Assembly (NCBI RefSeq): GCF_032884065.1
Contig: NC_088867.1
Span: 1,791,854 to 1,855,853 of the forward strand
Source of the DNA: Artemia franciscana
Lineage: Eukaryota; Arthropoda; Branchiopoda; Anostraca; Artemiidae
Direction of reading: 5' to 3'
DNA length: 64,000 nucleotides
Shown piece by piece: positions 1 through 64,000 of the stretch (positions are counted from its first letter, which is position 1; every line of letters starts with the position of its first letter). The notes beneath the pieces are model-generated. The model did no database searches and was not told the origin of the DNA. It saw only the letters and a list, made by a program, of their open reading frames with translations. Both the position numbers and the translations under genes were made by a program.

Positions 1-801
1 CTCATCTCCTCCTAATACCTCGCTCTTTACGCCAAAGTATTTTTAGTAATTTCAACTATTTATTCTGCGGCTTTTGTGATTCAGGGGTCATTCTTAATGA
101 ATTGGGACAAAATTTAAGCTTCAGTGTAAAGAGCGAGGTACTGACGAGGGGGCAAACCCCCTCATATATGCAATAAAAACATAAGAATACAAAAGTTCTT
201 TACGTAAGCTAATTTATAAGTTCCGTATATCTTTTACTTATAAAAAGATTCGTAAAAAATTAAAAGTTCTAGTTGCCTTTTTAATTAACCGAAAATCGGC
301 GGGCAATTTTCCCCGCACTCTGGAGGGGGGCTTCAGCCCTCCAGGGGGGGGCTCCCCCCTCCCCTGCTTTTTTCTCAAAATCATTCAATCAAAATTATGA
401 GAAAGCCATTTAGCCAAAAAAAATAAATATACAAATTTCGTTTTTATTATTCCTCTGCGGAGAGCCAAAATCAAAACATGCATTGATTCAAAAACGTTCA
501 GAAATTAAATAAAAAAAACAAGTTTTTTAAATGAAAGTAAGGAGCGACATTAAAACTTAAAACGAACAGAAATTACTCCGTATATGAAAGGGGCTTTTCC
601 TTCTCAACGCCCCCCTTTTTACGCAAAAGTTTTTTACTGTTTTAAAATGTAGAGTTAAAAGAAAGAGTCAAGCTTTAGCTCAAAGAGTGGGGCGTTGAGA
701 AGGAAAAGCCCCTTTCATATACAGAGTAATTTCTGTTCGTTTTAAGTTTTAATGCCGCTCCTTACTTTCATTTAAAAAACTTGTTTTTTTTTTATTTAAT
801 T
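1..801 (+). repeat. Fold-back/hairpin composite element, partial (foldback end)
   Basis: This is the right part of the dominant repeat family; the left part lies outside the window. I write the family as + when it runs from small terminal hairpin to large terminal fold-back. Visible here are the inner fold-back (ATACCTCGCTCTTTACG near 17-36 against TAAAGAGCGAGGTA near 127-140), the linker with GGAGAGCCAAAATC near 460, and the terminal fold-back 510-801. The two fold-back arms are close to perfect complements over about 110 bases with a spacer of about 60. No protein-coding capacity is seen. Confidence 0.85.
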
Positions 802-1065
802 TTCGAAAAGGGATCATTGGGTCACAGGGTCCTAAAATCGTAGCCTTTGAGATACGGAACCATTGGCTGACTCACAGTATGTGACTCATGCAAAGATGGT
901 TGAATGCTTTCAAAGATCTTATTAGTAGTGATGGGTCAATCTGTTTCAGACAGCCTCTAAGTGCTACTCTTTTCTTCTTCACCGTTAATAACGAAGAAGA
1001 GTAACGGCAATTCCCTCAAGACACAGATATTATTAATGTTCTAAGAGATAAATGTGTCTGTTACA
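802..1065. other. Unassigned sequence with a short inverted repeat
   Basis: No gene is supported. A small imperfect inverted repeat lies around 964-1006 (CTCTTTTCTTCTTCACC against GAAGAAGAGTAACGG). It shows no relation to the flanking fold-back elements. Confidence 0.4.
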
Positions 1066-1290
1066 TAATAGGGAATTTTTTTTCTAAGCGTTGCAGGTGG
1101 TTGTTACGTAATGGGGATGTTTACTTTAGGATTTCTTTGGTTGTTACGTAGTAGAGTTTGTTTTCTTTAAGATGAAGGTGCGTGTTACGTAAAAGAGTTG
1201 TTTTTCTAGAGAGGCAGGTGTATATTACATAATGGGGTTTGTTTAATCATGCAAATGGATTCAGATGTATGTTCTGTAATAGGGAATGTT
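1066..1290. repeat. Degenerate ~40-bp tandem repeat
   Basis: The word GTTACGTAATRGGG, or close variants, recurs near 1070, 1103, 1143, 1184, 1224 and 1271, giving a spacing of 33-47 bases. Units are diverged, so this is an old minisatellite. A further related word (GTTACATAATTATACG) lies near 1996. Confidence 0.6.
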
Positions 1291-1295
1291 GCCTT

Positions 1296-1905
1296 AAAGA
1301 CATTTCAAGGCGTTTTTAAGACATTTTTTTCATGACGTTTTTCAAGACGTTTGAAAACGTTTCAAGGCGTATTTAATACATTTTCTTTAAGACATTTATC
1401 AAGACGATTCAATACATTTCGGTGTAGATGACCATATCTTGGACACATTCTCTGCATGCCAGATCACAAACTTCCAAAAACGCTCCTCCACCTGGCAACT
1501 AGAAGGCACCCGTCACCGAGGAAGACCAAAGAACACACTCCTTAGGACGTATTAATGTGACAGAAAAGCCCTCCAGGCGAGTCTCATCCTTCCCCAGAGT
1601 GGAAAGACATATATTCAACGGCTCACATGATTGAAGATTGGAGCCTACTCACCGACGCCCTGTGTGCCTCTTGAGGCATATGAAGAGGTAAGGTCTAAGG
1701 CAAGGTCAATACATTTCGAGACGTTTTTAAGACATGTTTGTCATTTCGAGTTTGTCAATGCTTTTTTCAAGACGTTCCAAAATATTTCAAAAGGTTTTTA
1801 AGATTGTTTTCTTCAAGACGTTTCAAGACATCCAAGACGTTTTTTAAGACATTTTTTCTTCAAGACGTTTTAAGGCATTTCAAGACGTTTTTAAGACATT
1901 TATAG
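1296..1905. repeat. Degenerate AAGACGTTTT minisatellite, split by a LINE fragment
   Basis: Short T-rich units of the type TTTCAAGACGTTTTTAAGACA run from 1296 to 1421 and resume from 1706 to 1905. Between them sits a 284-bp retroposon fragment, described separately, so the array predates that insertion. Units are 12-20 bases and poorly conserved. Confidence 0.65.
1422..1705 (+). mobile_element. 5'-truncated LINE 3' end with 13-bp target-site duplication
   Basis: Translation on the plus strand gives the C-terminus typical of RTE/Jockey-type LINE polyproteins: an HRGRPKNTLLRTY segment, then a broken 'EDW..LTDALCAS' segment, with in-frame stops. It ends in a short tandem tail built from TAAGGTC/AAGG words (about 1687-1705). 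The insert is flanked by identical 13-base copies of TCAATACATTTCG at 1409-1421 and 1706-1718. A target-site duplication of this length is what target-primed reverse transcription leaves. Being 5'-truncated and interrupted, it is dead. The clade is uncertain. Confidence 0.75.
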
Positions 1906-2220: not shown

Positions 2221-3900
2221 ATTAAATAAAAAAAACAAGTTTTTTTATCTGAAAGTAAGGAGTGACGTTAAAACTTAAAACGAACAGAAATTACTTCGTA
2301 TATGAAAGGGGCTGCTTCCTCATCAACGCCCCGCTCTTTACGGTAAAGTTTGACTCTTTCTCTCAACTCTACTTTTTAAAACAGTAAAAAAATTTAGCGT
2401 AAAGAGCGGGGCGTTGATGAGGAAGCAGCCCTTTCATATACGAAGTAATATCGGTTCGTTTTAAGTTTTTATGTCGCTCCTTACTTTCAGCTAAAAAAAC
2501 TTGTTTTTTTTTATCTAATTTCTGAACGTGTTTGAATCAATGCAAGTTTTGATTTTGGCTCTCCGCAGAGGAATAATTAACACGAAATTCGCAAGTTTAA
2601 TTTTTTTTGGCTAAATGGCTTTCTCATAGTTTTGATCGAATGATTTTGATAAAAAAGGGAACGGTGGAGGAAGCCTAGTTGCCCTGCGATTTTTTAGTTA
2701 CTTAAAAAGGCAACTAGAACTTTAATTTTTTACGAATGTTTTTCTTAGTAAAAGATAAACGTAACTTTTAAATTAGCTTACGTAACTAACTTTTGTAATC
2801 TCATGTTTTTATTACATATATGAGGGATTCATCCCCTCGTCAGTACCTTGCTCTTTACACTAAAGATTAAGTTTTGTCCCAATTCATTAAGAATGACCCC
2901 TGAATCACAAAAGCCGTAGAATAAATAGTTGAAATCACTAAAAATACTTTAGCGTAAAGAGCAAGGTATTAGGAGGAGGTAAGCCCCTCATATGCGTAAT
3001 AATTTCTGTTTGTTTTAAGTTTGCGCTCCCCAATATTTCCTGTGCTCCCTTCATGGAAATTTTCTTCCCCCCTGACAAGTCCCTCGATGGAAAGTTCCCC
3101 CTACATATCCCCCTCTTGTCAACTCCTCCCCCCAACCAGAAAATCCCCCTGAAAACGTATGTACACTTCCCAATAACCATTACTATATGTAAGCACTGGT
3201 CAAAGTTTGTAACTTGTAGCCCCTCCCACGGGGACTCTGGGGGAGTAAGTCGTCCCTGAAGACACAGTTATAAGGTTTTTCGACTGCGCTGAATAAAATG
3301 GCTATCTCAGAATTTTGATCCATTGATTTTGGGAAAATAATTAGCGTGGGAGGGGGCCCATGTGCCCTCCAATTTTTTGTCACTTAAAAAGGTCACTAGA
3401 ACTTTTCCTTTCTGTTAGAATGAGCCCTCTTGCAAGATTCTAGGACCACTGGGTCGATACGATCACCCCTGGGAAAAAAAAAACAACAAACAAACAAACT
3501 AACAAATAAACAGGCATCCGTAATCTTCCTTCTGGCAAAAAATACAAAATTCCACATTTTTGTAGATAGGGGCTTGAAACTTCTGTAACAGGGTTTTCTG
3601 ATACGCTGAATCTGATGGTGTGATTTTTGTTAAAATCACACCAAATTTTGTTTCTACAAAATTTTGTTTCTACGACTTTTAGGGGGTATTTCTCCCTATT
3701 TTCTAAAATAAGGCAAATTTTCGCAGGCTCGTAGCTTTTGATGGGTAAGACTAAACGTGATGAAATTTATATACTTAAAATCAGCATTAAAATGCAATTC
3801 TTTTGATGTAGCTATTGGTATATAAATTCCATTTTTGGAGTTTTGGTTACTATCGAGCCAGGTCGCTCCTTACTACAGTTCGTTACCACGAACTGTTTGA
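2221..3900 (-). repeat. Fold-back/hairpin composite element, near full length
   Basis: A 1.68-kb copy in minus orientation. The terminal fold-back is 2221-2520; its centre carries its own variant, GGGGCTGCTTCCTCATCAACG, matched by the complement near 2408-2432. The inner fold-back (CTCTTTACACTAAAG near 2850 against CTTTAGCGTAAAGAG near 2947) and the unique body follow to the terminal hairpin ACAGTTCGT-TACC-ACGAACTGT, ending TTTGA at 3900. The left outer edge reads TGATTAAATA and the right edge reads TTTGATTAAATG, so GATTAAAT may be a short target duplication. Confidence 0.85.
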
Positions 3901-5048: not shown

Positions 5049-5129
<81 letters not shown>

Positions 5130-6190: not shown

Positions 6191-6201
6191 AATGAAGAAT
6201 T

Positions 6202-6990: not shown

Positions 6991-7619
6991 CAGATGCTCT
7001 TAAAAAAATGGCATTGAAAAGAATTACATGGTTGAAATACAGCTAGCGTGGGCCATGATAGAGGGAACTCTGTCGATGCGTATTGAACAAAAAAAGATAG
7101 GTGCTACTCTTGAAGCCGTCTAGCAGCAGTTTGAGTCAAAGAAATAGTTGCAGATCACATTTCTGTTCCAGCAAAGGACGGTGCAAAAAAGGGAAACATA
7201 TAGGCTGTATGTTTTAGTACCTAGTCTCTTTTGTCATATTTTTGAATCTGATTTTTTGTATTTGATAGTAAAGCGTACAGATAAAACAAGATAAAAGCTC
7301 CTCCATGACATGATCTTACTCAGGTGGTCTGTTTCTTAATTATCACTTGATCTCTGATCATGGAGAGATGTCTGCAAATGATTATTATCATTTTTTCCCT
7401 TAGTCAAGTGTCATTTGGTGTCGTATCACTTTTTGTCACTTCAGAAAAAAGCTTTCTGAAAATTGAGTTTCGAGGTCCATTTTGTGTCCAGAATTGTCCC
7501 CAGAGAGGTCACATTGAATTTTTCATCTTAAAAGAGTCCCTAAGTCCCTTTTTCTTGCCAATTAAACCTTTGGCAGCCCTGGTATAATATGACCTCCCAT
7601 ATCGCTTGCGAGAAAAGCT
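6991..7619. other. Unassigned sequence
   Basis: No supported gene. A 75-residue plus-strand open frame starting at 7360 has no recognisable domain and no usable context. Confidence 0.35.
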
Positions 7620-8220: not shown

Positions 8221-8640
8221 CACAATTTATTAGGAGTAAGTCCCGAAACATGTTTAATTAAAATAGGAAGCTTTTTTTTACTGAACTTCAACTACTACTG
8301 AAACTGCTAAGTACTACCGAACTTCAGTGTAATAGGGATTTACTCAACATTAGGAGAAAAAGTTAATGACCTACTAGCTAAAACCTGGGAAGTGTAATGC
8401 ATACATAGGTGTGGAACAAACTGAAGGACCTACAAAAACAAATATAGAAAATGATTTTTGTAGTACTTCCATAAAATGCAAGTCAGCTCTTTTCGAATAT
8501 CCATAAATGAATGCTGCACGAACTTCAAAAGAACAAACTTTAACACAAAAAAAGAGGGGCTACCACTCTCTTAGGACCAGAGAGTCATTTGTGCTTCATT
8601 GAACAATATTGTGTTTTGAAAAGCGTTTTTGTGTCAAAAT
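8221..8640. other. Unassigned sequence
   Basis: No gene or repeat recognised. Confidence 0.35.
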
Positions 8641-8645
8641 TACAT

Positions 8646-9749
8646 AAAAAAACTAGTTTTTTTAACTGAAAGTAAGGAGCGACATTAAAACTTAAAACGA
8701 ACAGAAATTACTCCGTATATGAAACCGGGTTGTCCCCTCCAGGGACAACCCGGAGGGTTGTCCCCTCCGCAATCTCTCTCTCTTTACGCTAAAGCTTTTA
8801 ATTGTTTTAAAAAGCAGAATTGTGGCAAAGAGTCAAACTTTAGCGTAAAGAGCGAGGGATTGCGGAGGGGACAACCCATTTCATATACGGAGTAATTTCT
8901 GTTCGTTTTAAGTTTTAATGTCGCTCCTTACTTTCGGTTAAAAAAACTAGTTTTTTTATGTAATTTCTGAACCTTTTATGAATTAATGCATGTTTGATTT
9001 TGGCTCTCCACACATAAATTATTAAAATGAAATTTGCTTATCAATTCCTTTTTTGGCTAAATGGCTTTCTCTTAGTTTTGATCAGACGATTTTGAGAAAT
9101 AAGGGATGGGGAAGGAGGCCTAGTTGCCATGCAATTTTTTTCGGTTACATAAAAAGGCAACTATAAATTTTAATTTTTAACAAATTTTTTATTACTAAAA
9201 AATATACGTAACTTAAGAATTACTTGAGAGTTACTTATGTAACAAACTTTTATATTCTTTAATTTTTATTATGTATATGAGGGGGTTTGTACCCTCGTTA
9301 GTACCTCGTTCTTTACACTAAATCGTAAGTTTTGTCCCAATTCTTTAAGAATGACCCCTGAATCAGAAAGGCCGTAGAATAAATAGTTGGAATTACTAAA
9401 AATACTATAGCATAAAGAGCGAGGTATTCATCTCCTCCTAAATACCTCACTCTTTATACTAAAGTATTTTTAGAACCCCTCATATGCGTAATAATCTCTG
9501 TTCGTTTTAAATTTCAATGCTACTCTTTACTTTCAATTGAAAAAAAACTTTTCCATGTTTATTTTTTCATTTTTTTTTATAGTAATTTTAGAAAATTCTG
9601 CGCCCTTTCCATTGAATTTATGTTCCCTCATGACATATTTCTCCAAGGAAAGATCCTCCCACATAGCCTCCTCCCCTCAACCCTCCCCCAAAACCAAAAA
9701 ATCCCCTGAAAACGACTGTACACTTGCCAATAACCATTATTATATGTAA
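8646..9749 (-). repeat. Fold-back element, truncated at the hairpin side
   Basis: Terminal fold-back 8646-8950 with outer edges TTACATAAAAAAACTAG and CTAGTTTTTTTATGTAA, then the inner fold-back and body. The body stops at 'CCATTATTATATGTAA' where the next copy begins. The centre carries an extra duplicated GGGTTGTCCCCTCC-type segment (about 8727-8765). Confidence 0.8.
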
Positions 9750-11487
9750 AAATAAAAAAAAACTAATTTTTTTAGCTGAAAGTAAGGAGCGACATTAAAA
9801 CTTAAAACGAACAGAAATTACTCCGTACATGAAATGGGTTGTCCCCTCCGCAATCCTTCGCTCTTTACGCTAAAGGTTTTAATTGTTTTAAAAAGTAGAA
9901 TTGTGGCAAAGAGTCAAACTTTAGCGTAAAGAGCGAGGGATTGCGGAGGGGACAACCCATTTTATATACGGAGTAATTTCTGTTCGTTTTAATGTCGCTC
10001 CTTACTTTCAGCTAAAAAAATTTGTTTTTTTTTTATTTAATTTCTGAACGTTTTTGAATTAATGCATGTTTGGTTTTGGCTCTCCGCACATAAATTATTA
10101 AAATGGAATTTGTATATTAATTCTTTTTTTGGCTAAATGGCTTTCTCTTAGTTTTCATCAGACGATTTTGAGAAATAAGGGGGTGGAGAAGGAGGTCTTG
10201 TTGCCCTCCAATTTTTCGGTTACTTAAAAAGGCAACTAGAACTTTTAATTTTTAACGAACGTTTTTATTAGTAAAAAATATACGTAACTTAAGAATTAAC
10301 TTACGTAACAAACTTTCATAACCTTATATTTTTATTATGTATGCGAGGGGGTTTGTACCCTCTTTAATACCTCGCTCTTTACACTAAATCGTAAGTTTTG
10401 TCCCAATTCTTTAAGAATGACCCCTGAATCAGAAAGGCCGTAGAATAAATAGTTGAAATTACTAAAAATACTTTAGCATAAAGAGCAAGGTATTTATCTC
10501 CTCCTAAATACCTCGCTCTTTATGCTAAAGTATTTTTAGAACCCCTCATATGCGTAATAATCTCTGTTCGTTTTAAGTTTCAATGCTACTTCTTCCTTTC
10601 ATTTGAAAAAACGCTTTCATGTTTATTTTTCATTGTTTTCTTATAGTAATGCTAGAGAATCCAGCGCCCATTTCATTGAATATTTCTTCCCCCATGACAG
10701 ATTCCTCCAAAGAAAGATCCTCCAACATAGCCCCCTCTCCTCAGTCCCACCCCCAAACAAAATAAAATCCCCCTGAAAACGTCTGTACACTTCCCAATAA
10801 CCATTACTATATGTAAACACTGGTCAAAGTTTGTAACTTGCAGCCCCTCCCCCAGGGATTGTGGGGGAGTAAGTCATCCCCAAGGACATAGTTATTATGG
10901 TTTTCGACTATGTTGAACAAAATGGCTATCTCAAAATTTTGATCCGTTGACTTTGTGAAAAAAATGAGCGTGGGAGGGGGCCTAGATGCCCTCCAATTTT
11001 TTTGGTCACTTAAAAAGGGCACTAGAACTTTTCGATTCCGTTAGAATGAGCCCTCTTGCGATATTCTAGGACCACTTGGGCGATACGATGACCCCTGGGA
11101 AAAAAAATAAAAATAAACACGCACCCGTGATTTGTCTTCTGGCAAAAAATACAAAATTCCACATTTTTGTAGATAGGAGCTTGAAACTACTACAGTAGGG
11201 TTCTCTGATACGCTGAATCTGATGGTGTCATTTTCGTTAAGATCGTACGACTTTTAGTGGGTGTTTCCCCCTAGTTTCCTAAATAAGGCAAATTTTCTCA
11301 GGCTCGTAACTTTTGATGGGTAAGACTAAACTGATGAAAAACTTGATGAATCTTATATATTTAAAATCAGCATTAAAATGCGATTCTTTTGATGTAGCTA
11401 TTGATATCAAAATTCAATTTTTTAGAGTTTTGGTTACTATTGAGCCGGGTCGCTCCTTACTACAGTTCGTTACCACGAATTGTTTGA
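9750..11487 (-). repeat. Fold-back/hairpin composite element, near full length
   Basis: Terminal fold-back 9755-10035, inner fold-back (10370-10545) and full body to the hairpin, ending TTTGA at 11487. It abuts the truncated copy on its left and a body-only copy on its right with no spacer. Confidence 0.85.
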
Positions 11488-12135
11488 ACACTGGTCGAAG
11501 TTTGTAACTTGCAGCCCCTCCCCCAGGGACTCTGGGGGAGTAAGTAATTCCCAAAGACATAGTAATTATGGTTTTTTACTATGCGGAAAAAAATGGCTAT
11601 CTCAAAATTTTGATCTGTTGACTTTGGAGAAAAAATGAGCATGGGAGGGGGCGTAGGTGCCCTCCAATTTTTTTGGTCACTTAAAAAGGGCACTAGAACT
11701 TTTTATTTCCGTTAGAATGATCCCTCTTGCGACATTCTAGGACCACTTGGTCGATACGATGACCCCTGAAAAAAAAACAAAAAAAAAACAAACAAACAAA
11801 TAAACACGCACCCGTGATTTGTCTTCTGGCAAAAAATACGAAGTTCCACATTTTTGTAGATAGGAGCTTGAAAATTTTGCTTTACGGTTCTCTGATACGC
11901 CGAATGGGATGGTGTGATTTTCGTTAAGAATCTGTGACTTTTAGATGACAAACTTTTGATGACTCGTAACTTTTGATGACAAAGACTAAATTTGATGAAA
12001 CTTATATATTTAAAATCAGCATGAAAATCTGATTCTTTGATGTATATTTTAGCATCAAAATTCAGTTTTTTAGACTTTCGTTTACTATTGAGCCGGGTCG
12101 CTCCTTACTACAGCTCGTTACCACGAACTGTTTGA
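11488..12135 (-). repeat. Fold-back element, hairpin-proximal part only
   Basis: Starts within the body at ACACTGGTC...AAGTTTGTAACTTGCAGCCCC and runs to a second hairpin ending TTTGA at 12135. It forms a partial direct tandem duplication with the preceding copy. Confidence 0.8.
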
Positions 12136-13342: not shown

Positions 13343-15063
13343 ACAAACAGTTCGTGGTAACGAACTGCAGCAAGGAGCGACCCTGCTCAATAGTAACCCA
13401 AACTAAAAAAAAATGGAATTTGATACCTATAGTCACATAAAAAAATTGCATTTTAATGCTGATTTTAAATGTATAACTTTCATCAAGATTAGTCTTACCT
13501 ACCAAAAGTTACGAGCCTGAGAAAATTTGCCTTATTTTAGAAAATAGGGGAAAATAGTCCATAAAAGTCATACAATCTTAACGAAAATCACACCATCAGA
13601 TTCAGCGTATCAGAGAACTTTATTGTAGACGTTTCAAGCTCCTGTCTATAAAAATGTGGAATTTCGCATTTTTTGCCAGAAGACAAATCACGGATGCGTG
13701 TTTATTTTTTTTGTTTTTTTTTTGTTTTTGTTTTCCCAGGGGTGATCGTATCGACTGAGTGGTCCTAGAATGTAGCGAGAGGGCTCATTCTAACGAAAAT
13801 TGAAAGTTCTAGTGCCCTTTTTATGTGACCAAAAAAATTGGAGGGCACCTAGGCCACCTCCCACGCTCATTTTTCCCCAAAATCACTAGATCAAAATTCT
13901 GAGATGGCCATTTTATTCACCATAGTAGAAAAACCTAATAACTATGTCTTTCGGGACGACTTATTCCCCCGCAGTCCCCATGGGAGGGGTTGCAAGTTAC
14001 AAACTTTGACCTGTGTTTACATATAGTAATGGTTACTGGGAAGTTTACGGACGTTTTCAGGGGGATTTTTTTGGTTTGGGAGGGAGAGTTGAGGTGGGGG
14101 GAGGTTACGTGGGAAGATCCTTCCATGGAATAACTTCTCAATTGGGAAGAGACTTTCAATGAAGGGGGCGCAGGATTTTTTAGCGTTATTTGAAAAGCAA
14201 TGAAAAAATAAATATGAAAAGTGTTTTTCTATTGAAAGTGAGGAGCAGCATTAGAACTTAAAACAAGCAGAAATTATTACGCATATGAGGGGTTTACCTC
14301 CCCGTAATACCTCGGTCTTTGCGCCAAAGTATTATTAGTAATTTCGACTATTTATTCTACGGCTTTTGTGATTCGAGGGTCATTCTTAAGGAATTGGGAC
14401 AAAATTTAAGCTTTAGTGTAAAGAGCGAGGTATAGACGAAGGGTGAACCCCCTCATTTACGTAATAAAAACATACGAATAGAGAAGTTCGTTACGTAAGA
14501 TAATTCGTTTAATTACGTAAATTTTTTACAAATGAAAATGTTCGTAAAAAATTAAAAGTTCTAGTAAAAAGCCTTTTTAAGTAATCAAAAAATTGGAGGA
14601 CAACTAGGCTTCCTCCTTCTCTCATTTTTTCTCAAAATCTTGCGATTAAAACTATGAGAAAGCCATTTAGCCCCCCCCCCCCCTCCCAAAAAAAATTAAT
14701 AGGCAAATTTCGTTTTAATTATTTATGTGCGGAGAGCCAAGATCAAAATATGCATTAATTAAAAAACGTCCAGAAATTAAATAAAAAAAAGAAGTTTTTT
14801 AAATGAAAGTAAGGAGCGACATTAAACTTAAAACGAACAGAAATTACTTCTTATGAAAGGGGCTTTTCCTCCTCAACTTTCCGCTCTTTACGCTAAAGTT
14901 TTTTACTGTTATAAGAAGTAAGAGTTAGGAGTCAAACTTTAACGCAAAGGGTGAGGCGTTGAGGAGGAAAAGCCCCTTTCATGTACGGAGTAATTTCTGT
15001 TCTTTTTAAGTTTTAATGTCGCTCCTTACTTTCATTTAAAAAACTTGTTATTTTTTATTTAAT
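13343..15063 (+). repeat. Fold-back/hairpin composite element, near full length
   Basis: Runs from hairpin ACAGTTCGT-GGTA-ACGAACTG at 13346 through the body, the inner fold-back (about 14235-14480) and the terminal fold-back (14775-15063). A C-run near 14672-14684 and small indels separate it from the other copies. Confidence 0.85.
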
Positions 15064-15207
15064 TCAGTCATAGAGACTCATTCCTTCGGTCTCTCTTTTT
15101 CTAGCTCATTAATGCACTAGAAGATCTTTAATGAATGATACTTTATTTACAAAAATTTTTTCACAACGTTAAACTTCCAAATTTTTCGTTTTTTGTCCTG
15201 TTAATTA

Positions 15208-15964
15208 TCAAACAGCTCATGGTAACGAACTGTAGTAAGGAGCGATTCGGCTCAATAGCAACCGAAACTCTAAAAACGGAACTTCGATACCAATATATGC
15301 ATCAAAAGATTTGCCTTTTATGCTGATTGTAAATATTTAAGTTTCATAAAGTTTAGTCTTATCCGAATAAAAAAAAAAATTAGTCTTATCCGAATCTTAT
15401 CAAAAAAGGGGGATCGTCGAATCTTGATGAAAATTTCAAGTTCCTATCTGTAAAAATGTGAAATTTTGTATTTGGTTGACACAAGAATGACCACGGATGC
15501 GTGTTTATTTGTTTCTTTGTCTTTTTGTTGTTTTTCCCCAGGGGTGATCATATCGACCCAGTGGTTGTAGAATATCGCGAGAGGGCTCGTTCTAACGGAA
15601 ATCAAAAGCTCTAGTGCCCTTTTTAAGTGATCAAAAAACTGGAGGGCAACTCGGCTCCCTCCTAAGCTCATTTTCCCCAAAATTACCAGATCAAGATTTT
15701 TTAGATTGCCATTTTTGTTCAGCATAGTCAAAAATCTAATAAATACGTCTTTAAGGATGACTCAATCCCCATAATCCTCAGGGGAGGGGCTGGAGATCAT
15801 AGGGCCCCTTGTTTACATATAGTATTGGTTATTGGCGAAGTATACTGACGTTTTCAGAGGGTATTTTCTGGTGGTGGGGGGGAAGGTCAGGGGCTATGTG
15901 AGAGGATCTTTCCATGAAGGAATTTATCATTGGAGAAGAGAATTTCCATGAAGGGGGCATTTTG
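15208..15964 (+). repeat. Fold-back element, hairpin-proximal part
   Basis: Begins TCAAACAG with a mutated hairpin (CAGCTCATGGTAACGAACTG), keeps the body to GAAGGGGGCA near 15960, then breaks into LINE-derived sequence. Confidence 0.75.
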
Positions 15965-42700: not shown

Positions 42701-45700
42701 AGCCAAAAAAGGAATTAATATGCAAATTTCATTTTAATAATTTATGGGTAGAGAGCCAAAATCAAACATCCATTAATTCAAAAACGTTCAGAAATCAAAC
42801 AGTTCGTGGTAACGAACTGTAGTAAGGAGCGACCCGGCTCAATAGTAACCAAAACTCTAAAAAATAGAATTTTGATACCAATAGCTACATCAAAAGAATC
42901 GCATTTTAATGCTGGTTTTAAATATATAAGTTTCATCAAGTGTATTCTTACCCATCAAAAGTTACGAGCCTGAGAAAATTTGCGTTATTTTAGAAAATAG
43001 GGGGAAACGCCCCCTAAAAGTCATAGAATCTTAACGAAAATCACACCATCAGATTCAGCGTATCAGAGAACCCTACTGTAGAAGTTTCGAGCTCCTATCT
43101 ACAGAAATCTGGAATTTTGCATGTTTTGCCACAAGGCAGATCACGGATGCGTGTTTATTTGTTTTTTTGTTTTTTTTTTGTTTTTTCCCCCAGGGTTGAT
43201 CGTATCGACCCAGTTGTCCTAGAATGTTGCAAGAGGGCTCATTCTAACGGAAATGAAAAGTTCTAGTGCCCTTTTTAAGTGACCAAAAAAATTGGAGGGC
43301 ACTTAGGCCCCCTCCCACGCTAATTATTTTCCCAAAGTCAACGGATCAAAATTCTGAGATAGCCATTTTATTCAGCAAAGTCGAAAAAACTTATAACTAT
43401 GTCTTTGGGGACGACTTACTCCCCCACAGTCCCCGTGGGAGGAACAACAAGTTACAAACTTTGACCTGTGCTTACATATAGTAATGGTTATTGGGAAGTA
43501 TACAGGCGTTTTCAGGAGGATTTTTTTGGTTTGGGGGAGGGGTTGAGAAGAGGGGGATATGCTGGGGGAACTTTCCTTCGAGAATTTGTAATGGGAGAAG
43601 AAAATTTCCATGAAGGGAGAGCAGGATTTACTAGCATTATTTAAAAAAAAAAAACAATTAAAAAATAAAAGTGAAAAAGCTTTTTCAGCTGGAAGTAAGG
43701 AACAGCAATAAAACTTAAAAGAAACAGAAATTATTACCCATATGAGGGGCTCACCTCCTTCTAATACCTCACTCTTTACGCTAAAGTATTTTCAGTAATT
43801 TCAACTACTTATTCTACGGCTTTTGTGATTCAGGGAGTCATTCTTAATGAATTGGGATAAAATTTAAGCTTTAGTGTAAAGAGCGAGGTACTGACGATGG
43901 GGCGAATTCCCTCATATATGTAATAAAAACATGAGAATACAAAAGTTCTTTACGTAAGCTAATTTATGAGTTACGTAAATCTTTTACCAATAAAAAGATT
44001 CGTAAAAAATTAAAAGTTCTAGTTGCCTTTTTAATTAACCAAAAAATCGGGGGGCAACTAGGCTTCGTCCCCCGCTCTTTTTTCTCAAAATCATTCGATC
44101 AAAATTATGAGAAAGCCATGGAGCCAAAAAAAAAAAAAAATATGCAAATTTCGTTTTGATGATTCCTCTGCGGAGAGCCAAAATCAAAACATGCATTGAT
44201 TCAAAAACGTTCAGAAATTAAATAAAAAAAAACAAGTTTTTTTAACTGAAAGTAAGGAGCGACATTAAAACTTAAAACGCACAGAAATTACTTCGTATAT
44301 GAAAGAGGCTGCTTCCAAATCAACGCCCCGCTCTTTACGCTAAAGTTTTTTACTGTTTTAAAAAGAAGAATTGAGAGAAAGAGTCAAATATTTGAGGACC
44401 TTCCATTCAATTTTTTTTTAGATAGTCTGAGTGAGAAGTAAAGCCATTTTCAGGGTTGTTCATAAATGATTTTCATTCTCACTTGCAGATAATTAAAAAC
44501 GTTAAGAAATTACATAAAAAACAACTAGTTTTTTTAACTGAAAGCAAGGAGCGACATTAAAACTTAAAACGGACAGAAATTACTCCGTATATGAAATGAG
44601 TTGTCCCCTCCGCAATCCCTCACTCTTTACGCTAAAGTTTGACTCTTTGCCACAATTCTGCTTTTTAAAACAATTAAAATCCATTTGTCTTAAGTTTGTT
44701 TTTTTATACAGCAACAGAAAAAAGAAAGTTCAAGCAATGGATAAAACAAACATTTGGGTGTCAAAATAAGTGATGCTAGGATCAACTGACAAACAAAATA
44801 GACTTCTATGGGTAACACTATCCAATAAACGCACTTAATATTTGGCATTTTATCCTGTTGTTGCTGTAACAATTTAAAAATATAAAGAAAAATGGGAATG
44901 CCAATAAAATATGTAAGTAACCATGAAATAAGTGGCTACTAAAAATAGGTACTTACGTGTGAAGAACCTTTCACTCAGCTCATTCTCATCAGAATCTGCA
45001 GCTTCAGGATATGGCTGAGCAACTGCAATAAGACAAAAACATGTATATTTTTTTTATCAGAAATTAAGCACAAGGAAATGAAGTTGTTTTTGAAGCTTGT
45101 GAAATTTCCCGTTATTTTCTAGAAAAAAAACACTTTTTTCTTTATGTTACACATGTTTTAAAAACATTATGCTAGTAGGGAAGTTAAGTTTTCTTCAGAA
45201 CAATTTTATGTCGAACTATATAGGGTATTAAATGTTCACTCTGAAAACTCAAGAACAATATTTTGTAGCTCCTTTAGATTTCTTCCAGAAAATTCTGGAA
45301 ATTCGATCCTGAATGACAAAATTTTTGGTTTTTGGGTTGTTTTCTGAAATTTTTGATATGATTTCTCTTGTATTTTTATAGAGTAGTAATTTCTAAAATA
45401 CGAAAGTTGGCATGAAATTTCATAAATACGAAACTAATTTGTTCACGTAGAAATATTTTCCAAAGGCATCGTAATGTATTTTTGTGTTAGCCTTTTCTAG
45501 ACAAGGTGAAATTTTTTCAATGCAGATAAGACAGATCTTGATCTTGTGTTAATAAGAGCTTATATTGGTTACTCAAAAATAAAATTTCTTCAGTTAGTTT
45601 TTCTTGTGTTAGATTTTGATATTGCAAGGCCCAGCATTTTGTGCAAGTAAAACGCCCTAGCTTCGAAAATAAACATTTTAGAAAATAATTTTGGATACTG

Positions 45701-48700
45701 ATGGAATTTCATATTATATTTTGGAAAACCTTAGAACATTTCTGTATTTTTCACATTCTTTTGTCAAATAATACAGTAAATTCTGATATTGAGGCATAGT
45801 TCCGGTTCCGGAACTATGAAGTTCCGGTGTTTTTTTTTTTATTTCTTCTGAAGATTTGATTTATATGTTGATTTGATTTTTAGAAGCTTAGTTTCATGAA
45901 AGTAAATTAAGTAAGCATGAATTCTTCTATATCCAAAAATAAGCTTTGGGCCTATAGGAAATATGTCCAAAAGTCGTAATCGAGCATCGATTTCCTTCTC
46001 ATCCAAGATCAGTGGCTCTCAACCGTTTCGGGCCATGCCCCACCTAAATATTTCTAAAATCCTGATGCCCCCTGGTAATATTTTATTTTTGTTATAAAAC
46101 TTTACGGGTTACCTGAAGAAACTTAAAATGCTATTAACTTTAAATGCATTTGAATGTGACGTCATTTAATATGAAAAATATTTTTTTCTAAAGTATGGTC
46201 AGCCGAAGCGTGTATGTCCTTCCCATGAACCAACAAATTATTGTCATGCCCCATCGATGGAGCTTGCACCCCACATTGGGAATCACGGTCTTGGGAGTAT
46301 CTTTTTTCTAAACATAAAGTCGAATTTCCTCTTCCAATACGATTAAACAGATCTTGTTTTTTCTAAGTACTAGAGCTTACATTAATCATCCAGATGTAAA
46401 TTTCCTTCTTTGATTTTTCTATTTTAAAGTTTTGATCCTGCAAATTCCCTATATTTTGCATAAGTAAAATGCCCTTAGAAATCAAATAAAGCTAAATACC
46501 GATAGAACGTAATATTATCTTTTATACCGACTAATCGTGATTCTCATATATCTCGTATATTTTTGGGAAATAATCCTCGAATTTCTGCCATTACTCGTGC
46601 GACGTAGCTGCATGTGCTGGTCTGCAACTGCAGCCTATAGGTAATAATTGCTGCAGCTCCCTACGGGGCCTTGGCCCCGGAGCTCTATATTTTTCTTTTT
46701 TTAGTATAGAACTTCATTTATCAAACAGTTCATCGAACTGTAGTAAGGAGCGACCAGGCTCAATAGTAACCGAAACTCTAAAAATGGAATTTTGACACCA
46801 ATAGTTACATCAAAAGAATGGCATTTTAATGCTGATTATAAATATATAAGTTTCATCAAGATTAGTCTCACCCAGCAAAAGTTACGAGCCTGAGAAAATT
46901 TGTCTCATTTTAGAAAATAGGGGGGAACATCCCCTAAAAGTCCTACGATCTTAACGAAAATCACATCATCAGATTCAACGTATCAGAGAACCATATTGTA
47001 GAAGTTTCAAGCCCCTATCTGCAAAAATGTAGAACTTCGCATTTTTGCCAGAAGACAAATCACGGATGTGTGATTTGTGGTACAGACGTTAAACAAAAAG
47101 AGTCAAACTTTAGCATAAAGAGCGGGGCGTTGAGGAGGAAAAGCCCCTTTCATATGCGGAGTAATTTCTGTTCGTTTTAAGTTTAAATGTCGCTCCTTAC
47201 TTTCATTGAAAAAAACTTGTTTTTTTTGTTTAATATCAGCAAAAAGTCCGATCCTTAAAATGTATCTATTGGTGTCAAAATTCCGTTTTTAAGAGTTTCA
47301 GTTACTATTGAGCCGGGCCGCTCTTTACAGTTCGTTACCACGAACTGTTTGATATTTGTTAGTGTAAAATATTTTTCAGCAATATGTGTCGCAAATTTCA
47401 GTTTCAAGAAGAAATATTAACTTGGGAATACTTTTACCTGAAAATGACAATAAATGATAGTTTTAAATGAATTATGATATTTAAAAGTTTTTCAACATAT
47501 TCAATTTTTAAAAAGCTGATAATCTATAAAAGAGCTCTGATTCTTGATATCAGTTTTTGAGATTTGTTGTGTCTTTCATTTTATTATCGTCCGAAATTGA
47601 ATTTATTAATTGCGTCACCTATAAGCTAATAATTATTTATTTGGGGCTATAACAGCCGTCCTGGCCGAGTGTATTGGTGTGTTGGATTTAGAATCCTTTG
47701 ACTGAGAGGACGCTTGTACCCAATTGTCCAGTTTGGGACGGGGGTCAGTGGCGTGACTCTGTAAGCTTAGCCAGAGTCGACACAGCTCTGAATGGGTACC
47801 TGGAGAAATCTGGGGAAGGTGAACAGGAAGGAGGTGCAAAAGTCTAATGCCGTATCTTTTTTTTTATATTTTTATAAACTGTTTATGCTTGTCCTTATTG
47901 TCCAATTGACTCTGACAGCAATTTTATACCTAAGAATTCACAATAAATTAAAAGAAAAGGACAAGCCAAATAGTACAAAAACCTTACAACGCCATAAACT
48001 TTTTTTTGGGAGGGGGGAACGAGGAGGTAAACCCCTCATATGCGTTATAATGTCTGTTCGTTTTCAGTTTTAATGCTGCTCCTCACTTTCAGCAGAAAAA
48101 CACTTTTCATATCTATTTGTTCATTGTTTTTTAAAATAATGCTAGAAAATCCTGCGCCCCCTCCATTGAAAGTTTCTTCTCCCATGAGAAATTCCTCCAT
48201 GGAAAGATTCAGTGTATCAAAAAACCTTACTGTAGAGGATTTAAGCTCCTATCTGCGAAAATGTGGAATTTGTATTTTTTGAAAGATCATGGATGCGTGT
48301 TTATATGTTTTTTTCCCAGGGGAGATCGTATTGACCAAGTGATCCTAGAATATTGCAAGAGTGCTCACTCGAATGGAATTTAAGAGTTCTAGTGCATTTT
48401 TTTTAAGTGACCACAAAATTGGAGGGTAGCTAAGCCCCATCCCACGCTCTTTTTCCCAAATTTGCCCGATCAAAACTTTGAGATAGCCAACATAGTCTAA
48501 GCATAATTTTTCAACATAGTCGAAAAATTTACTCACTCTTTACGCGAAAGTTATTTTTTGGTATATTTAAAAGATCTATTTATTCCAATTAAACTGCCTT
48601 TGTGATTAAGGGAACATTCTGAAGGAATTGAAACAAAATTCGAACTTTAGCCAAAAAAGTGAGACATTGGCGAGGGGGAAAACCCCCTCATAAGTGTAAT

Positions 48701-52617: not shown

Positions 52618-52620
52618 TTG

Positions 52621-53055
52621 TCAAACAGTTCGTCAAACAGTTCGTCGTAACGAACGAATTTGTCAAACAGTTCGTCGTAACGAACTGTAGTAAGGAGCGA
52701 CCCGGCTCAATAGTAAACGAAACTCTAAACAATTGAATTTTGATATTAATAGATACATCAAAAGAATTAGATTTTAATGCTGATTTTAAATATATAAGTT
52801 TCGTCAAATGTAGTCGCAACCATTAAAAAGTTATGAGCCTGAGAAAATTGGCCATATTCTGGAATTTGGTTGGGAAAACCCCCTAAAAGTCATAGAATAC
52901 TTTTTTAATAAGTAGAGTTGAGAGATAGAGTCAAACTAGTAAAGATCGGGCTTTGAGGAGGGAACAGCCCTTTTCATAGACGGAGTAATTTTTGTTCGTT
53001 TTAAGTTTTATTGTCGCTCCTTACTTGCAGTCAAAAAATTTATTTATTTATTTAA
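52621..53055 (+). repeat. Deleted fold-back element with triplicated hairpin terminus
   Basis: TCAAACAGTTCGT occurs at 52621, 52633 and 52663, the last with full hairpin (ACAGTTCGTCGTAACGAACTGT). The body then runs to about 52900, jumps to the fold-back spacer (AGTAGAGTTGAGAGA) and the right arm, and ends near 53055. It is about 390 bp after the last hairpin. Confidence 0.8.
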
Positions 53056-56000
53056 TGACAGACAAGAAGTGCTATGAATTTAACTAAATAGCTTTGTTTA
53101 TTTAATTTTACTGTTCACCGTGGCATCACTGACGAAAATGGGTTACTACCTTAAAGAAAATCAGTAATCTTGAAACAGCCAAAAAGAAAATTTTTAGAAA
53201 ATTGTGTATGCCAGGTATAAACAGACCTATGGTGATCCAATGAGGAAATGTTATTTTCATGTCCCTCACATACTAAAGCCAAATACAGTACACTTTTTGT
53301 TTCTTTTTAAGTGCTTCTAGTTTCTGCCATAATTTGCAGCAAAATATTTCTCAGCTCGCCGATTAAATTTGCGAATCTATTTGCAGTGGAATATTTCTTG
53401 ACTCTTTTATTACTGATATAAGGCTGATCTTTCCCAATCTTTGGAATATTAGCTGTTAAACCCAAAAATATTTTCTATGAATGAAGAAATGACCGAAACT
53501 AAGAGATATTAAAACAAGCAATGAAGGTAAACTAAAGCCGTAGGTTTAATGCAGGTTTAACCTACTTGCTTGTACTTTGTTACATGTTCAAGCCGTATCC
53601 ATGCTCATTGCTGCATCCAGCAGATGATGACATGCGTCCTTCGAGAGATCTCAATCAAGATTGCATGCTCTATGATTTCCAGCCACTAATTATCCAAGAA
53701 AAGCCGTGTTTTCAGAACCCCTTGAGTGGCTCAAGATTGGACTTGTGCTGGTGGTGTTTGACATTTAATTTTTTTTTTTTTTTAGCTTGCATGGTCAGCT
53801 TGTCTATAAATTCTGTGGCCTAACTCAGAGCTCAGTACGAAATGAAATATCAATCTGATTCCAAAAAGATTTTGTTGCGGAAGAACAACGTTCATGTTAA
53901 GGATATGCAACTTCAGAACTTTTTTGAAGACTCACTAACAGGGTCTGTAATCAAGCACCGAGCCAAAATATTTGAAAGACTGGGCCTGCGTAATCTAACT
54001 TCATCCATCCCAGCTGTTTGTATTGTCTTCGTGTTCTCATGCTATCTGAGTTTATTTGGAGGCCAGTCAAGACTCACATTTCTACCACACTTTTGATCTG
54101 AAACAGGTTTGGTATAACTATTACCTCAGCTTCTGCTACAGATTCAGCAGGCATATCCTAACCATTAGCATAGTCAAGGCTCCTGACAGAAAATGATGGG
54201 CTCAATGCAACAGCTTTGTACTATTCAAGAACCTTGTAAATCCAATTCATTATGAAGTTTAACATGGACAGGAGACAGGGTGAGATAATACCACCTAGGC
54301 GTGCACCCTCCGTGATTAGGATCAGGTTTGAAGGCTTATCATCGAATCAAACTTGGGCGTTTATTCAAGAACAGAGTGTCCTGAGCAGAACAAGAATATG
54401 TTTATCTACACCGTCATCATACTGATTCATATATTGGAATACGTTGGCCTGCCCCTAAGCCAGCTATGAATGTTTGGAAATTAGTTTTGTTTCGCGCTGG
54501 GGTTTAAAACTGTGTTTAAGCATCTGACAAAGGCTAAAGATTTTGTCACAGCAGCCCATGCAGGGAATGAATTCAGCTTTGTTTGCTACCCTCTAGATAT
54601 TTCTGGTGTTTCTGTTTGATTCCCAGAAGCTTAGTAGAAATGGGGACAAGAGATATCCCTTGGTAGCTTATAAAATTTGTACGGTCTCCTTGTTTGAATT
54701 GTTTGAGCAATTTTTGCTGCCTTCCACTCTCCCATTCTTTCCTTGCAGTCTTTTCTTAGTAGTATTGCAATCTTTTTATAGTATTTAACCATTATTGAAT
54801 GGGATATCTCCAGTTTCCTAGATGCCATCAAACTATGAAGCTTATCCACCTCCGACTGGAGGAGCGTTAACACACAGTCTGCAATTACCGGTGAAGCTTC
54901 TATCTTATGAATTTGTTGCTGAGTTAAATTTTCCGCTATTACATAAAAGCTCAAAAGCACACTTTTGAGCTATACTGTTTAGCAAAGAATCCTCGGCTTA
55001 AGGAAATTGTATTTACATAATTTTCTTCTTTGAATGAAAATTGGATCCTAAAGATGTTTATATAATATTTCTCTTCAACCCACATTCTAAAAAACACAAT
55101 ATTTCCACCGTTCTTTTATAATTTACGAAGCGACATTTCCGTTTATTTATTATTTTTTTTTTGAATTATTATTGATCAAAATTTCAGGAACATAACGAGC
55201 TCAAGAATATACAGTTAATGTAAGAATATAAATATTTTTACGTATAATTAACGTTTAAGAATGTTAATGAATTGAAGATTATAGGAATTCTAATTAAGAC
55301 AATAGGAATTCTAAGTAATTAATATCAGTACAATTTTAGCAAGAATGTATAATTAATTATATTTTACGACTTAATTATCAGTATTTATTAGTAAATGATG
55401 GACTCTTCATAATATGAGTTGAAAGAATTTTTATACTGGCATAAAGGGATTTTCTACCTTTAGTGTCAAATTGAAAGATCTTGGTGAAAAGCGGTAAAAG
55501 GAGGGACTAATTACCTCCAATCACTTTTGATGCTCTAGAATATCCTGCAATTTTCATTTAAGTAAAATTTCTCCCAAAATGTTACGACTTTTGGATCGAT
55601 ACAATCCAGACCCAAAAATTATATACCGTTTTTTGTTGGTAATTAAATTTCTCATTTTTGTGAGTACTTTCAGTAGACTGTTGGGCATCTAGAATCAGAT
55701 GAATTTTAATGCAATTGGACCCAACTCCCATCAAGATTATGCTGCATTTAGGTGACGTTTCTCCCCTTTTTCTTGAATTGTAATAAATTGTATAAATTTG
55801 AAATTCCCATGAAAATTAAATTTTCTTAAATTTTTGGTGACTATTGTTACATACTACATACCTCTCTTTGTTAGCCGCTCGTTAAATTTAATCATAAAAT
55901 TCACTCAAGGTACAGTTTGATAGAATAAAAAAATGTGTTAATATATAAAGATACTGATTTAGCTACCGATAATGATAAGCGCTAGAGCCTAAAGCTATTA

Positions 56001-57240: not shown

Positions 57241-57258
57241 CAAGATTTGTCTTTCTGA

Positions 57259-57282
57259 TAGATAGATAGATAGATAGATAAG
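57259..57282. repeat. (GATA)n microsatellite, 3' tail of the LINE
   Basis: GATA units on the plus strand, TATC in the sense of the element, at its 3' end. Confidence 0.9.
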
Positions 57283-61402: not shown

Positions 61403-61447
61403 GCGTACTACCCTTTCACTAGAATTTTCACTATGGCCCCCCGTTTC

Positions 61448-62557
61448 CTATTCATCACCAGCAGTTACTATAGACCCTTGACTCGGCTGTTCTCTTGACA
61501 CGCTTTCACCATCACTTGCCCTCACCTCAAGACCACTGCCATCCATTGGTGCTTCCTGGTTGAGCACTCCCACTAATCGTGACTTTCTGATAGGTTGATT
61601 TTGATCGTCACTTGGACTTATTATCCTAGCATGGTCGCGTTTGGCCCGTGGTTCAGGCCTCCCGGGCATCTTCAAAGCAACCGTATTTTTCGGTGTAATA
61701 AATGTCGTTGTGGTTCGAATATCCGTGTTTGGATCGTCCAATTCATTTTCATTGGCTGAAAAATATCCTTGCAAGCTACCTGTAGATTCTGCCCTGCTAC
61801 GCGTTGGAGTCTCATGGTCAAGGGACTGACGGCTCTGACCTTGAAGCCTTCCCAAAGCTATCGGGACCATATCTCTAACACTCGGACCACTTACTTCAAT
61901 TATTTTCTCATTCTCAAAATCATACGTCAAAATCTTGTCCTGTAAAATTAGCCTTACCCCCCTTAATTTAGCAGGCATATTTTTTGACCTAGCCTCCGCT
62001 AGCAGTGGTTTTAACTTATCTCGAGCCATACGCTCTCTTTCCGTGTAGTCAGGGGATATATACAACTTATGACGGCTAAATAGCCCAGAGGATCTCAACA
62101 CCAAATCTCTCAGAGGCTTGCTAATAAATTTAATGACAACCGGGGGCACGCCATTATTTTTAGAGCGAAGGCGGAAAATATCCTTTATGTCTCGCCTCTC
62201 TAGATCCAAATTCGGGACAATTTCATTTAAGCATGACAAAATATCTGACGCTAGACTGGGTCCTCGATGTTTAGGGTCAAAATTGTATATAATCAAATTC
62301 ATGTTCTTCAATTCTTTTTCAAGAAAATCTATCTTGGACTGGGTTTTCCGCAAATCTTTATTAACAGTCGAGCAGCTTAATGCCAGTCCCGCTATCTCCG
62401 ATTTAATTGCTCTGTTGGTTTCCTCTACCTTGCAAGAAAATTCCGAAAAAATCGTCTTTAGGCCTTCAATTCCCTCCGCCAAAACCTCTATTTTATTTAC
62501 TGAGGCTCTTAGACTTTGCATCTCCTTTATCAGTTGTTTTATACCTTCATCGCTCAT
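61448..62557 (-). CDS. LINE ORF1: coiled-coil RNA-binding protein
   Basis: 369 residues. Residues about 1-85 show heptad spacing of Leu/Ile/Val (IKQLIKEMQSLRASVNKIEVL...), a likely coiled coil for multimerisation. About 85-170 (MNLIIYNFDPKHRG... through VVIKFISKPLRDLV) resembles the RRM-like fold of LINE ORF1 proteins. About 170-235 (KLYISPDYTERERMARDKLKPLL) resembles the C-terminal domain that follows it. The remaining ~130 residues are polar and likely disordered. It lies 45 nt upstream of ORF2. The role by family is to coat the element RNA as a chaperone. Confidence 0.85.
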   Translation of the reverse strand: MSDEGIKQLIKEMQSLRASVNKIEVLAEGIEGLKTIFSEFSCKVEETNRAIKSEIAGLALSCSTVNKDLRKTQSKIDFLEKELKNMNLIIYNFDPKHRGPSLASDILSCLNEIVPNLDLERRDIKDIFRLRSKNNGVPPVVIKFISKPLRDLVLRSSGLFSRHKLYISPDYTERERMARDKLKPLLAEARSKNMPAKLRGVRLILQDKILTYDFENEKIIEVSGPSVRDMVPIALGRLQGQSRQSLDHETPTRSRAESTGSLQGYFSANENELDDPNTDIRTTTTFITPKNTVALKMPGRPEPRAKRDHARIISPSDDQNQPIRKSRLVGVLNQEAPMDGSGLEVRASDGESVSREQPSQGSIVTAGDE

Positions 62558-62656
62558 CTTAGGGTATTAAATATTATGCCAAAATCTTACCTTCGATATG
62601 CCTTTCGTATTTACCCTCGTACCGGCCTTCGAGCTTTTCTCAAAAATTTTGTCTTT

Positions 62657-63314
62657 AGTGGCCAACAAAAACCAGATCAATCCAACTATATCCAAAGGCA
62701 ATCGTTGCGCAATGAACTAATTATCCAAAAAGTTGAAAACTGGCCAAACAATAAAACTAGTTTAGATCTATATAGGTCAAAGACTGGATCAATACTGGGA
62801 TACAGTATTGATTTACTTGATAGGATAGGATTTACTTGATTACTAGTATTGATAGGATACAGCCTATTATGATTTACTTTTACAAACGAACAATAAATTT
62901 TAAACTAACAATTTAAGAATACCCTCTCCTCCTCCTCCTAATTGGCTTTATTTAGTAGTCTGAGTTGGACCCAAGTTATTTGCTAGACAAAACATGGCTA
63001 TGTAATCGCAAAACTATTCCATGCAATATTTTAAAGATGCAAGGTTACGCAGACTAAGGTAGTAGCACTTGGAGGTAATTAGCTTAACCTGAGTGAGTTA
63101 AACTACTATGCAGGTATATTTTATCTGAATTTTTAATATATAGAGTTCGTTACATTAGGTATAGGTATTACATTATCTGAGGGGACTGTTTTCCACAATT
63201 CTCTGTTATAGTTTCTATAATTTTGTTACTAAAGTATTAAATTTTTATCAGATTTTGTCATTTTTCATTATGATAAGCCGAACTTCAGTTCTTGAGTGTG
63301 GTCACTGTAAAACA
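62657..63314. other. Unassigned sequence
   Basis: No gene or clear repeat. Short direct repeats of TTTACTTGAT.AC.AGTATTGATAGGAT occur near 62810-62855. Confidence 0.4.
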
Positions 63315-64000
63315 TTACATAAAAAGAAACTAGTTTTTTTAACTGAAAGTAAGGAGCGACATTAAAACTTAAAACGAACAGAAATTACTCCGTATATGAA
63401 ATGGGTTGTCCCCTCCGCAATTCTTCGCTCTTTACGCTAAAGTTTGACTCTTTGCCACAATTCTGCTTTTTAAAACAATTAAAAACTTTAGCGTAAAGAG
63501 CGAAGGATTGCGGAGGGGACAACCCATTTCATATACGGATTAATTTCTGTTCGTTTTAAGTTTTAATGTCGCTCCTTACTTTCAGTTAAAAAAACTAGTT
63601 TTTTTATGTAATTTCTGAAAGTTTTTGAATTAATGCATGTTTGATTTTGGTTCTCCACACATCAATTATTAAAATGAAATTTGCATATTAATTCCTTTTT
63701 GGCTAAATGGCTTTCTCTTAGTTTTGATCAGACGATTTTGAGAGATAAAGGGTGGGGAAAGAGGCCTAGTTGCCCTGCAATTTTTCGGTTACATAAAAAG
63801 GCAACTATAAATTTTAATTTTTAACGAATGTTTTTATTAGTAAAAAATATACGTAACTTAAGAATTAACTTACGTAACAAACTTTTATATTCTTAAATTT
63901 GTATTATGTATATGAGGGGGTTTGTACCCTTGTTAATACCTCGCTCTTTACACTATATCGTAAGTTTTGTCCCAATTCTTTAAGAATGACCCCTGAATCA
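63315..64000 (-). repeat. Fold-back element, cut by the window edge
   Basis: Terminal fold-back 63315-63612 of the CTAGTTTTTTT subfamily (centre GGGTTGTCCCCTCCGCAAT and complement), then the linker and the start of the inner fold-back. Very similar to 8646-9400, so one of the youngest copies. Confidence 0.85.

Follow-up and report, generated by a model that had tools for sequence, protein, structure and literature searches.

To which class of mobile element does a repeat with a small hairpin at one end and a giant fold-back at the other belong, and which enzyme would move it? The question is raised by a 64,000-nucleotide stretch of the Artemia franciscana genome (NC_088867.1, positions 1,791,854 to 1,855,853; hereafter the window), whose dominant repeat had been described in these terms in a first-pass annotation. 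The composite repeat was confirmed by self-comparison of the window and by a consensus of 1,709 bp derived from the alignment of seven window copies. We consider it likely that the repeat is a rolling-circle element of the Helitron2/Helentron (HINE) type, non-autonomous and moved by a Rep/helicase supplied in trans. This assignment was made by the arrangement of parts, and the repeat probably works like, and is derived from, Helitron2/Helentron. It is not a canonical Helitron, an FB element or a miniature inverted-repeat transposable element (MITE).

Starting from the hairpin end, the consensus comprises TCAA and the hairpin (positions 1-26), a body, a decayed inner fold-back, a linker and the terminal fold-back. 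Specifically, TCAA is followed by the stem-loop ACAGTTCGT-GGTA-ACGAACTGT, with a 9-bp stem and a 4-nt loop and lying 4 nt from the element end, and then by AGTAAGGAGCGAC. The 56-base stem-loop end has a z of -4.2, none of 200 shuffles being equally stable, and the motif TCAAACAG occurs 15 times in the window against 3.0 expected (reached in 0 of 100 shuffles), with four of these occurrences falling outside the hairpin. The inner fold-back maps at about positions 858-1120, where the inverted pair at 926-1120 is 71% alike; the terminal fold-back covers positions 1411-1709, about 300 bp, with arms of about 130 bp and an inverted identity of 90%. The two fold-backs are related (80-85%), and body positions 450-567 and linker positions 1201-1316 form an 85% identical direct repeat, which argues that the interior grew by duplication. 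The statement of the first-pass annotation that there is no ordinary terminal inverted repeat pair overlooked a 13-bp subterminal inverted repeat joining the two ends: AGTAAGGAGCGAC at position 27 has its complement at position 1664, exact in the consensus, and is also present in each arm of the terminal fold-back, as exemplified by copy A. Conservation along the element is almost flat (bins 1-50 and 451-500 tied highest at 0.982, the last 33 bases low at 0.929), so that the profile alone does not single out functional ends.

The repeat is a non-coding family. Two frames longer than 120 codons lie within copies, at 11712-12104 (copy H) and 43372-43791 (copy C), and neither gave a Pfam match; there were likewise no matches in Rfam at gathering scores, with ARAGORN, or in viral contigs searched with two patterns.

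In the Helitron2 orientation, which is opposite to that used in the first-pass annotation, the 5' end starts with TTAAATAAAAAAAAC, the 5' asymmetrical terminal inverted repeat (ATIR) AGTAAGGAGCGAC is folded in the giant 5' hairpin, and the 3' end reads GTCGCTCCTTACT, stem-loop ACAGTTCGT/TACC/ACGAACTGT, TTGA, beside a host T. As described in excerpts of the original reports, Helitron2 elements (Bao and Jurka 2013; FoHeli1/2 of Fusarium, 2016) carry ATIRs and hairpins at both ends (PMC3627910, PMC5148889), and DINE-1/HINE elements carry 13-bp subterminal inverted repeats (subTIRs), an inverted repeat near the 5' subTIR and a 3' stem-loop (PMC4067079).

The mode of insertion was assessed at four sites, all compared with paralogous, not allelic, sequences. 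In the first, copy E lies within copy H, whose flanks, put together, restore the body sequence CCAGTGT^TTACATA found uninterrupted in other copies, without gain or loss of a base; copy E itself is three bases short at the end of the consensus. As the first-pass annotation states, copies occur in both orientations and some are joined without spacer, but the junction 9750/11487 is this nested insertion. The second insertion, copy L050 in another body copy, is at most 1 base from the position of E (about consensus position 676), a possible target hotspot. In the third, copy G splits an unrelated repeat, R2, and uninterrupted sequences at L003, L006 and L008 read AATGA^TTAAATG or nearly so. The fourth is a complete copy in L073, a locus with a GLPHVH-type Rep pattern that is uninterrupted there in L071 and L074; the site is a CTAT microsatellite and the exact insertion base is less certain. 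No target-site duplication (TSD) was found in the four insertions beyond one ambiguous T, which in the second to fourth cases can be assigned either to the element or to the target. All 24 copies that reach the end of the consensus have T as their last base, and the base before TC in the 22 analysed copies reaching position 1 is A in 18, T in three and G in one (binomial P = 2.8e-6 for the excess of A against 32.5% A), in keeping with insertion mainly at A^T and occasionally at T^T or G^T.

In conclusion, the whole composite inserts as one unit, without TSD, in the four insertions compared, and a separate movement of body and fold-back, named in the first-pass annotation as what would refute its reading, was not seen there. 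The earlier lead towards a Helitron/Helentron derivative is backed by both the architecture and the insertion without TSD.

The family was then sized in the assembly (1,270,528,402 bases, 6,468 contigs). The terminal 33-mer has 21,748 exact matches, the reversed controls none. An A precedes 15,395 of the matches (71%) and C, G or T the other 6,353; in the 100 non-A matches listed, all on contig C1 and counted by eye, the base was T in 72, G in 26 and C in two. A consensus search met 7,952 candidate places, of which 40 were scored; 26 of these 40 were analysed, and 21 of the 26 aligned over positions 1-1709 in one piece. Among the incomplete ones, L058 and L061 start at positions 321 and 332, and L048, L051 and L059 are short by at most 6 bases at an end. 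When copies were clustered by single linkage at 96% body identity, groups of 10 and 5 emerged. Divergent hairpin ends, as a route to a partner, matched at 38 sites, of which 12 were analysed: ten represent the same element with indels or deletions, and at the other two, L080 and L083, an exact terminal 39 bp (stem-loop and 13-bp ATIR) is followed by other DNA, as could result from one-ended events or truncations. No open frame of at least 90 codons was found in about 3.7 kb beyond the L080 terminus; about 2.4 kb further on there is a body piece (positions 69-603, 73%) and then an arm-like piece, so that L080 could be an old copy carrying a large insertion.

The arms of the terminal fold-back were compared in 34 copies (26 genomic and eight from the window; C and D, without a second arm, were left out), all with both arms. 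These copies are related to each other and the P values are indicative only. The arms of one copy are 93.6% alike, against 88.8% for arms of different copies, a difference reached in 0 of 5000 permutations; the same arm compared across copies gave 88.8-89.0%, and the arms of copy F are only 77% alike. An alignment-projected remeasurement on 31 copies led to a comparable result (93.3% versus 89.5%, 0 of 5000). In the same 31 copies no concert appeared in the inner fold-back (63.1% versus 62.9%, 1313 of 5000) or in the body/linker direct repeat (78.9% versus 78.8%, 1210 of 5000). In addition, the loop is inverted in three of the 34 (L064, E and H), L064 and L065 having opposite loops and bodies 98.4% alike. 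The terminal arms thus show concerted evolution on average, and inversion of the loop is possible.

Of 75 variants private to one copy, 4 were found in both arms, against 136 of 358 variants shared with other copies (Fisher P = 1.6e-9). Since private variants are rarely in both arms, exchange between the arms seems to occur mainly in copy-producing lineages and not in resident copies; private variants are also younger, slow local conversion is compatible with the counts, and shared variants include parallel mutations. Homogenisation therefore seems tied to replicating lineages, and we infer that it takes place during a replicative single-stranded or fold-back stage in the source lineages. A possible, though somewhat unlikely, alternative is that the concert stems from local gene conversion of the usual kind, acting on nearby inverted repeats in resident copies independently of transposition. 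Palindromes convert in many genomes and the loop inversion fits intrachromosomal recombination, but local conversion sits poorly with the contrast between private and shared variants and with the lack of concert in the inner fold-back and the direct repeat, even if the inner arms, 63% alike, are perhaps too diverged to convert.

On the assignment to Helitron2/Helentron, with both rolling-circle replication and the identity of the enzyme inferred, transposition could proceed as follows. The Rep/helicase would nick the A^T junction at one end and the helicase would peel off a single strand, with the 3' stem-loop marking termination, in the way that the 3' hairpin of Helraiser is described to act as a terminator in part of PMC4778049. 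The strand, or a circle, would join a new A^T without target duplication. On the displaced strand the 5' arms would pair; their likeness would be maintained, and the loop occasionally inverted, by repair, arm-to-arm templated synthesis or inter-arm recombination. The element may be able to do without a second arm, since short derivatives with one arm exist (46721-47234 and 52663-53056). We offer only tentatively, and with some doubt, the idea of a distinct rolling-circle sub-lineage in which the 5' hairpin with its arms of about 130 bp is re-copied arm from arm in each replicative round by hairpin-templated synthesis on the displaced strand, so that the fold-back would take an active part in replication instead of being a passive palindrome.

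As to candidate enzymes, the Helitron family is very large in this genome (PF14214; 150 matches scored among 7,436 candidate places). L039 holds an intact Rep/helicase frame of 1,688 aa with PF14214, PF05970 and an N-terminal repeat called STPRs by Pfam, and the Helitron copies L040, L041 and L042 are 99.3-99.9% alike to it over more than 5 kb; the Helitron looks recently active. Such abundant Helitron1 proteins could cross-mobilise the repeat, which would then be a Helitron1 derivative with eroded ends. Like canonical Helitrons (Helitron1, Helraiser), the repeat inserts at A^T without TSD, as is the Helitron1 rule, and has a hairpin near one end; excerpts of PMC4778049 give the target preference of Helraiser as AT, then TT, AC and AA. 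This origin is nevertheless improbable: the hairpin and the TC end coincide, or, in the opposite orientation, the 5' TC is missing and the 3' terminus has TTGA in place of CTRR; the distance of the stem-loop from the end is 4 nt instead of about 11; no sequence is common to the repeat and the Helitron copies L039-L042; and a fold-back is present together with an ATIR pair, a feature of Helitron2 and not of Helitron1 in the account given in PMC3627910.

Rep loci were compared with the repeat at 40 places (L009-L042 and L069-L074), and a hairpin-plus-ATIR end was found only in the copy nested in L073. Among canonical Helitrons no partner emerged, 30 Rep loci and the four 10-kb copies L039-L042 sharing no end with the repeat. 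Helentrons are present: the degenerate DNA pattern QxxRG-S-PHxH, with the motif GSPHIH, gave seven identical sites and none in the control. Two 10-kb stretches, L069 and L070, were analysed. In the L069 Helentron the Rep, PIF1 helicase and endonuclease are encoded in separate frames, and L070 is 95% alike over its main part; the only match of L069 to the repeat is a 16-base piece at chance level. An upstream reading frame resembles, by eye, a ubiquitin protease, and L069 seems to abut what we take, by eye, to be ribosomal DNA. Reps of the GLPH[V/L]H type (54 sites, four loci analysed) gave no partner either, L073 holding the nested copy and a linker piece and the other three low-complexity matches only.

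A transposon not derived from Helitrons, moved as a single strand by an enzyme of a different HUH class or of an unknown one that recognises terminal hairpins (IS200/IS605-like), would agree with hairpins at both ends, insertion beside T, no TSD and no partner found. It is quite improbable, the architecture being already matched by Helitron2/HINE, and we know of no eukaryotic hairpin-recognising enzyme of the IS200/IS605 kind. Cut-and-paste movement by a DDE transposase, as for FB/Galileo or MITE-type elements, is very improbable, and the FB lead of the first-pass annotation is not supported: FB and Galileo share with the repeat long inverted arms and loop inversion, but FB and MITE elements have terminal inverted repeats at both ends and a fixed TSD (9 and 7 bp in FB and Galileo), whereas here the long arms are at one end only, no TSD was found at the four insertions, and the opposite ends share only the 13-bp exact subterminal pair. 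Solo fold-back-like pieces in the window (e.g. 32263-32438 and 44490-44679) might suggest two independent elements, hairpin-body and fold-back, often inserting together, but we give this hardly any credence, both parts being in fixed order to the base in 21 of the 26 genomic copies and moving as one in the four insertions.

The copies and derivatives in the window are collected in Table 1. Eight are near-full, one of them split by another, and two more are cut by the window ends; repeated sequence of all families together makes up about 40% of the window.

Table 1. Copies of the composite repeat and their derivatives in the window (consensus positions counted from the hairpin end).
Feature	Position	Strand	Match to consensus
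Full-length copy A, hairpin end first	13343..15063	+	2-1709, 88.8%
Terminal fold-back of copy A	14776..15064	.	
Full-length copy B	27813..29487	+	1-1709, 89.3%
Copy D, stops where terminal fold-back would start (GAAA|T), abutted by copy C	41342..42794	+	
Copy C, truncated within terminal fold-back	42795..44388	+	1-1582, 92.0%
Full-length copy E, inserted in copy H	9750..11487	-	1-1706, 87.3%
Copy H, terminal fold-back part	8639..9749	-	670-1709, 80.8%
Copy H, hairpin-end part	11488..12135	-	1-671, 84.3%
Full-length copy F	33633..35283	-	1-1709, 86.2%
Near-full copy G, inserted in unrelated repeat R2	2221..3900	-	1-826 and 906-1709
Copy cut by window start	1..800	+	946-1709, 87.2%
Copy cut by window end	63314..64000	-	1021-1709, 88.7%
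Internally deleted derivative, hairpin end and one terminal arm	46721..47234	+	1-362 and 1572-1709
Internally deleted derivative	52663..53056	+	1-235 and 1545-1709
Derivative, hairpin end and body only	15208..15958	+	1-159 and 288-820

The neighbouring minisatellite mentioned in the first-pass annotation holds for one copy: among the tandem arrays listed, a 25-bp one adjoins the copy at 52663. This array (about 51 units, 51350-52617) lies immediately before the hairpin terminus of the family, which is repeated at 52621, 52633 and 52663, as if the end had been duplicated. Part of the region around copy G has an inverted duplicate, about 97% identical, about 171 kb away (L001, C5:1,795,733; L002, C5:1,967,119).

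The absence of a reverse transcriptase (RT), also stated earlier, is true of the repeat but not of the window, where two long interspersed nuclear elements (LINEs) encode one. The LINE at 57941-62566 (-) has an endonuclease and RT frame of 1,168 aa, before which lies an open frame of 372 aa with no match in Pfam; in the LINE at 22553-24286 (-), a 577-aa frame encodes the RT. At 38140-39433 a satellite-like sequence of 291 bp is arrayed in about 4.5 units, and a sequence similar to it by eye flanks the L070 Helentron. Three adjacent open frames (127, 175 and 396 aa) at 17255-19376 (-), with no Pfam match, look like a broken gene or element.

In the literature, searches combining Artemia with Helentron, Helitron and related terms, together with sequence strings, returned no description of the repeat among the records listed, Repbase and Dfam lying outside the search. 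The available part of the A. franciscana genome paper assigns 8.81% of the genome to Helitrons on the basis of a RepeatModeler library (PMC11492255). The earlier proposal of an undescribed family stands in a limited sense only, since such a library may already include the repeat under a machine name. What is new is the oversized terminal hairpin, with arms evolving in concert, in a non-autonomous family that resembles Helitron2/HINE. If the assignment is true, a repeat whose exact termini number more than 20,000 in the genome of an important model crustacean would be a Helitron2-type parasite, and would offer a natural record of the fate of terminal hairpins during rolling-circle transposition.

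Several observations weigh against the Helitron2/Helentron assignment and the picture built on it. No Rep-encoding element clearly with the ends of the repeat was found among the 40 Rep loci, 30 of which are stretches of at most about 3.5 kb that may not reach the element ends, and with no partner found membership of Helitron2/Helentron is unproved. Pieces resembling the repeat do occur at L070, namely an arm-like one at 9110-9315 (105 bits), which lies about 1.9 kb outside the region of Helentron similarity, and a weak match over 45 bp of 7418-7461 to consensus positions 27-69 (31 bits, E 0.014), with neither the hairpin nor the 13-bp repeat; we read them as unrelated neighbours, and not as proof of the absence of a partner. 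The 5' ATIR of Helitron2 is 0-2 bp from the 5' end and that of the repeat about 33 nt inside; the Helitron2 target is TTTT^T/C (also TNAT^T) and that of Helentron/HINE is TT, whereas the repeat uses A^T, with A before TC in 71%; and the repeat ends in TTGA, not CTRR. The 26 genomic copies are top-scoring ones, so that complete and young copies are over-represented. Finally, the concert is an average: the best match is the copy's own second arm in 13 of the 34, and in five (L048, L049, L054, L059 and F) that arm comes 18th or lower.

Compared with the known systems, the repeat is like Helitron2 and HINE in having a subterminal inverted repeat of the asymmetric type, 13 bp here and 8-15 bp there. 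As in Helitron2, the 3' ATIR is just upstream of the 3' hairpin, 26 nt from the end against 20-30 bp, and the 5' hairpin is formed with the 5' ATIR, the repeat's own being far larger than published ones. Insertion without TSD is shared with Helitron-1N1_CRe, as described in excerpts of PMC3627910 and PMC5148889, but some Helitron2 members (CRe-1,2,3) have TSDs of 7-19 bp. Unlike Helitron2, the repeat has a 5' hairpin of about 300 bp with arms of about 130 bp, and unlike HINE/DINE-1 its 5' inverted repeat is giant and concerted. Bao and Jurka proposed, in the available part of PMC3627910, that pairing between the 5' and 3' ATIRs dissolves the 5' hairpin and marks the end-point of replication. 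Arms about ten times longer than an ATIR of 8-15 bp strain this model, and their concerted evolution makes it testable by sequence alone.

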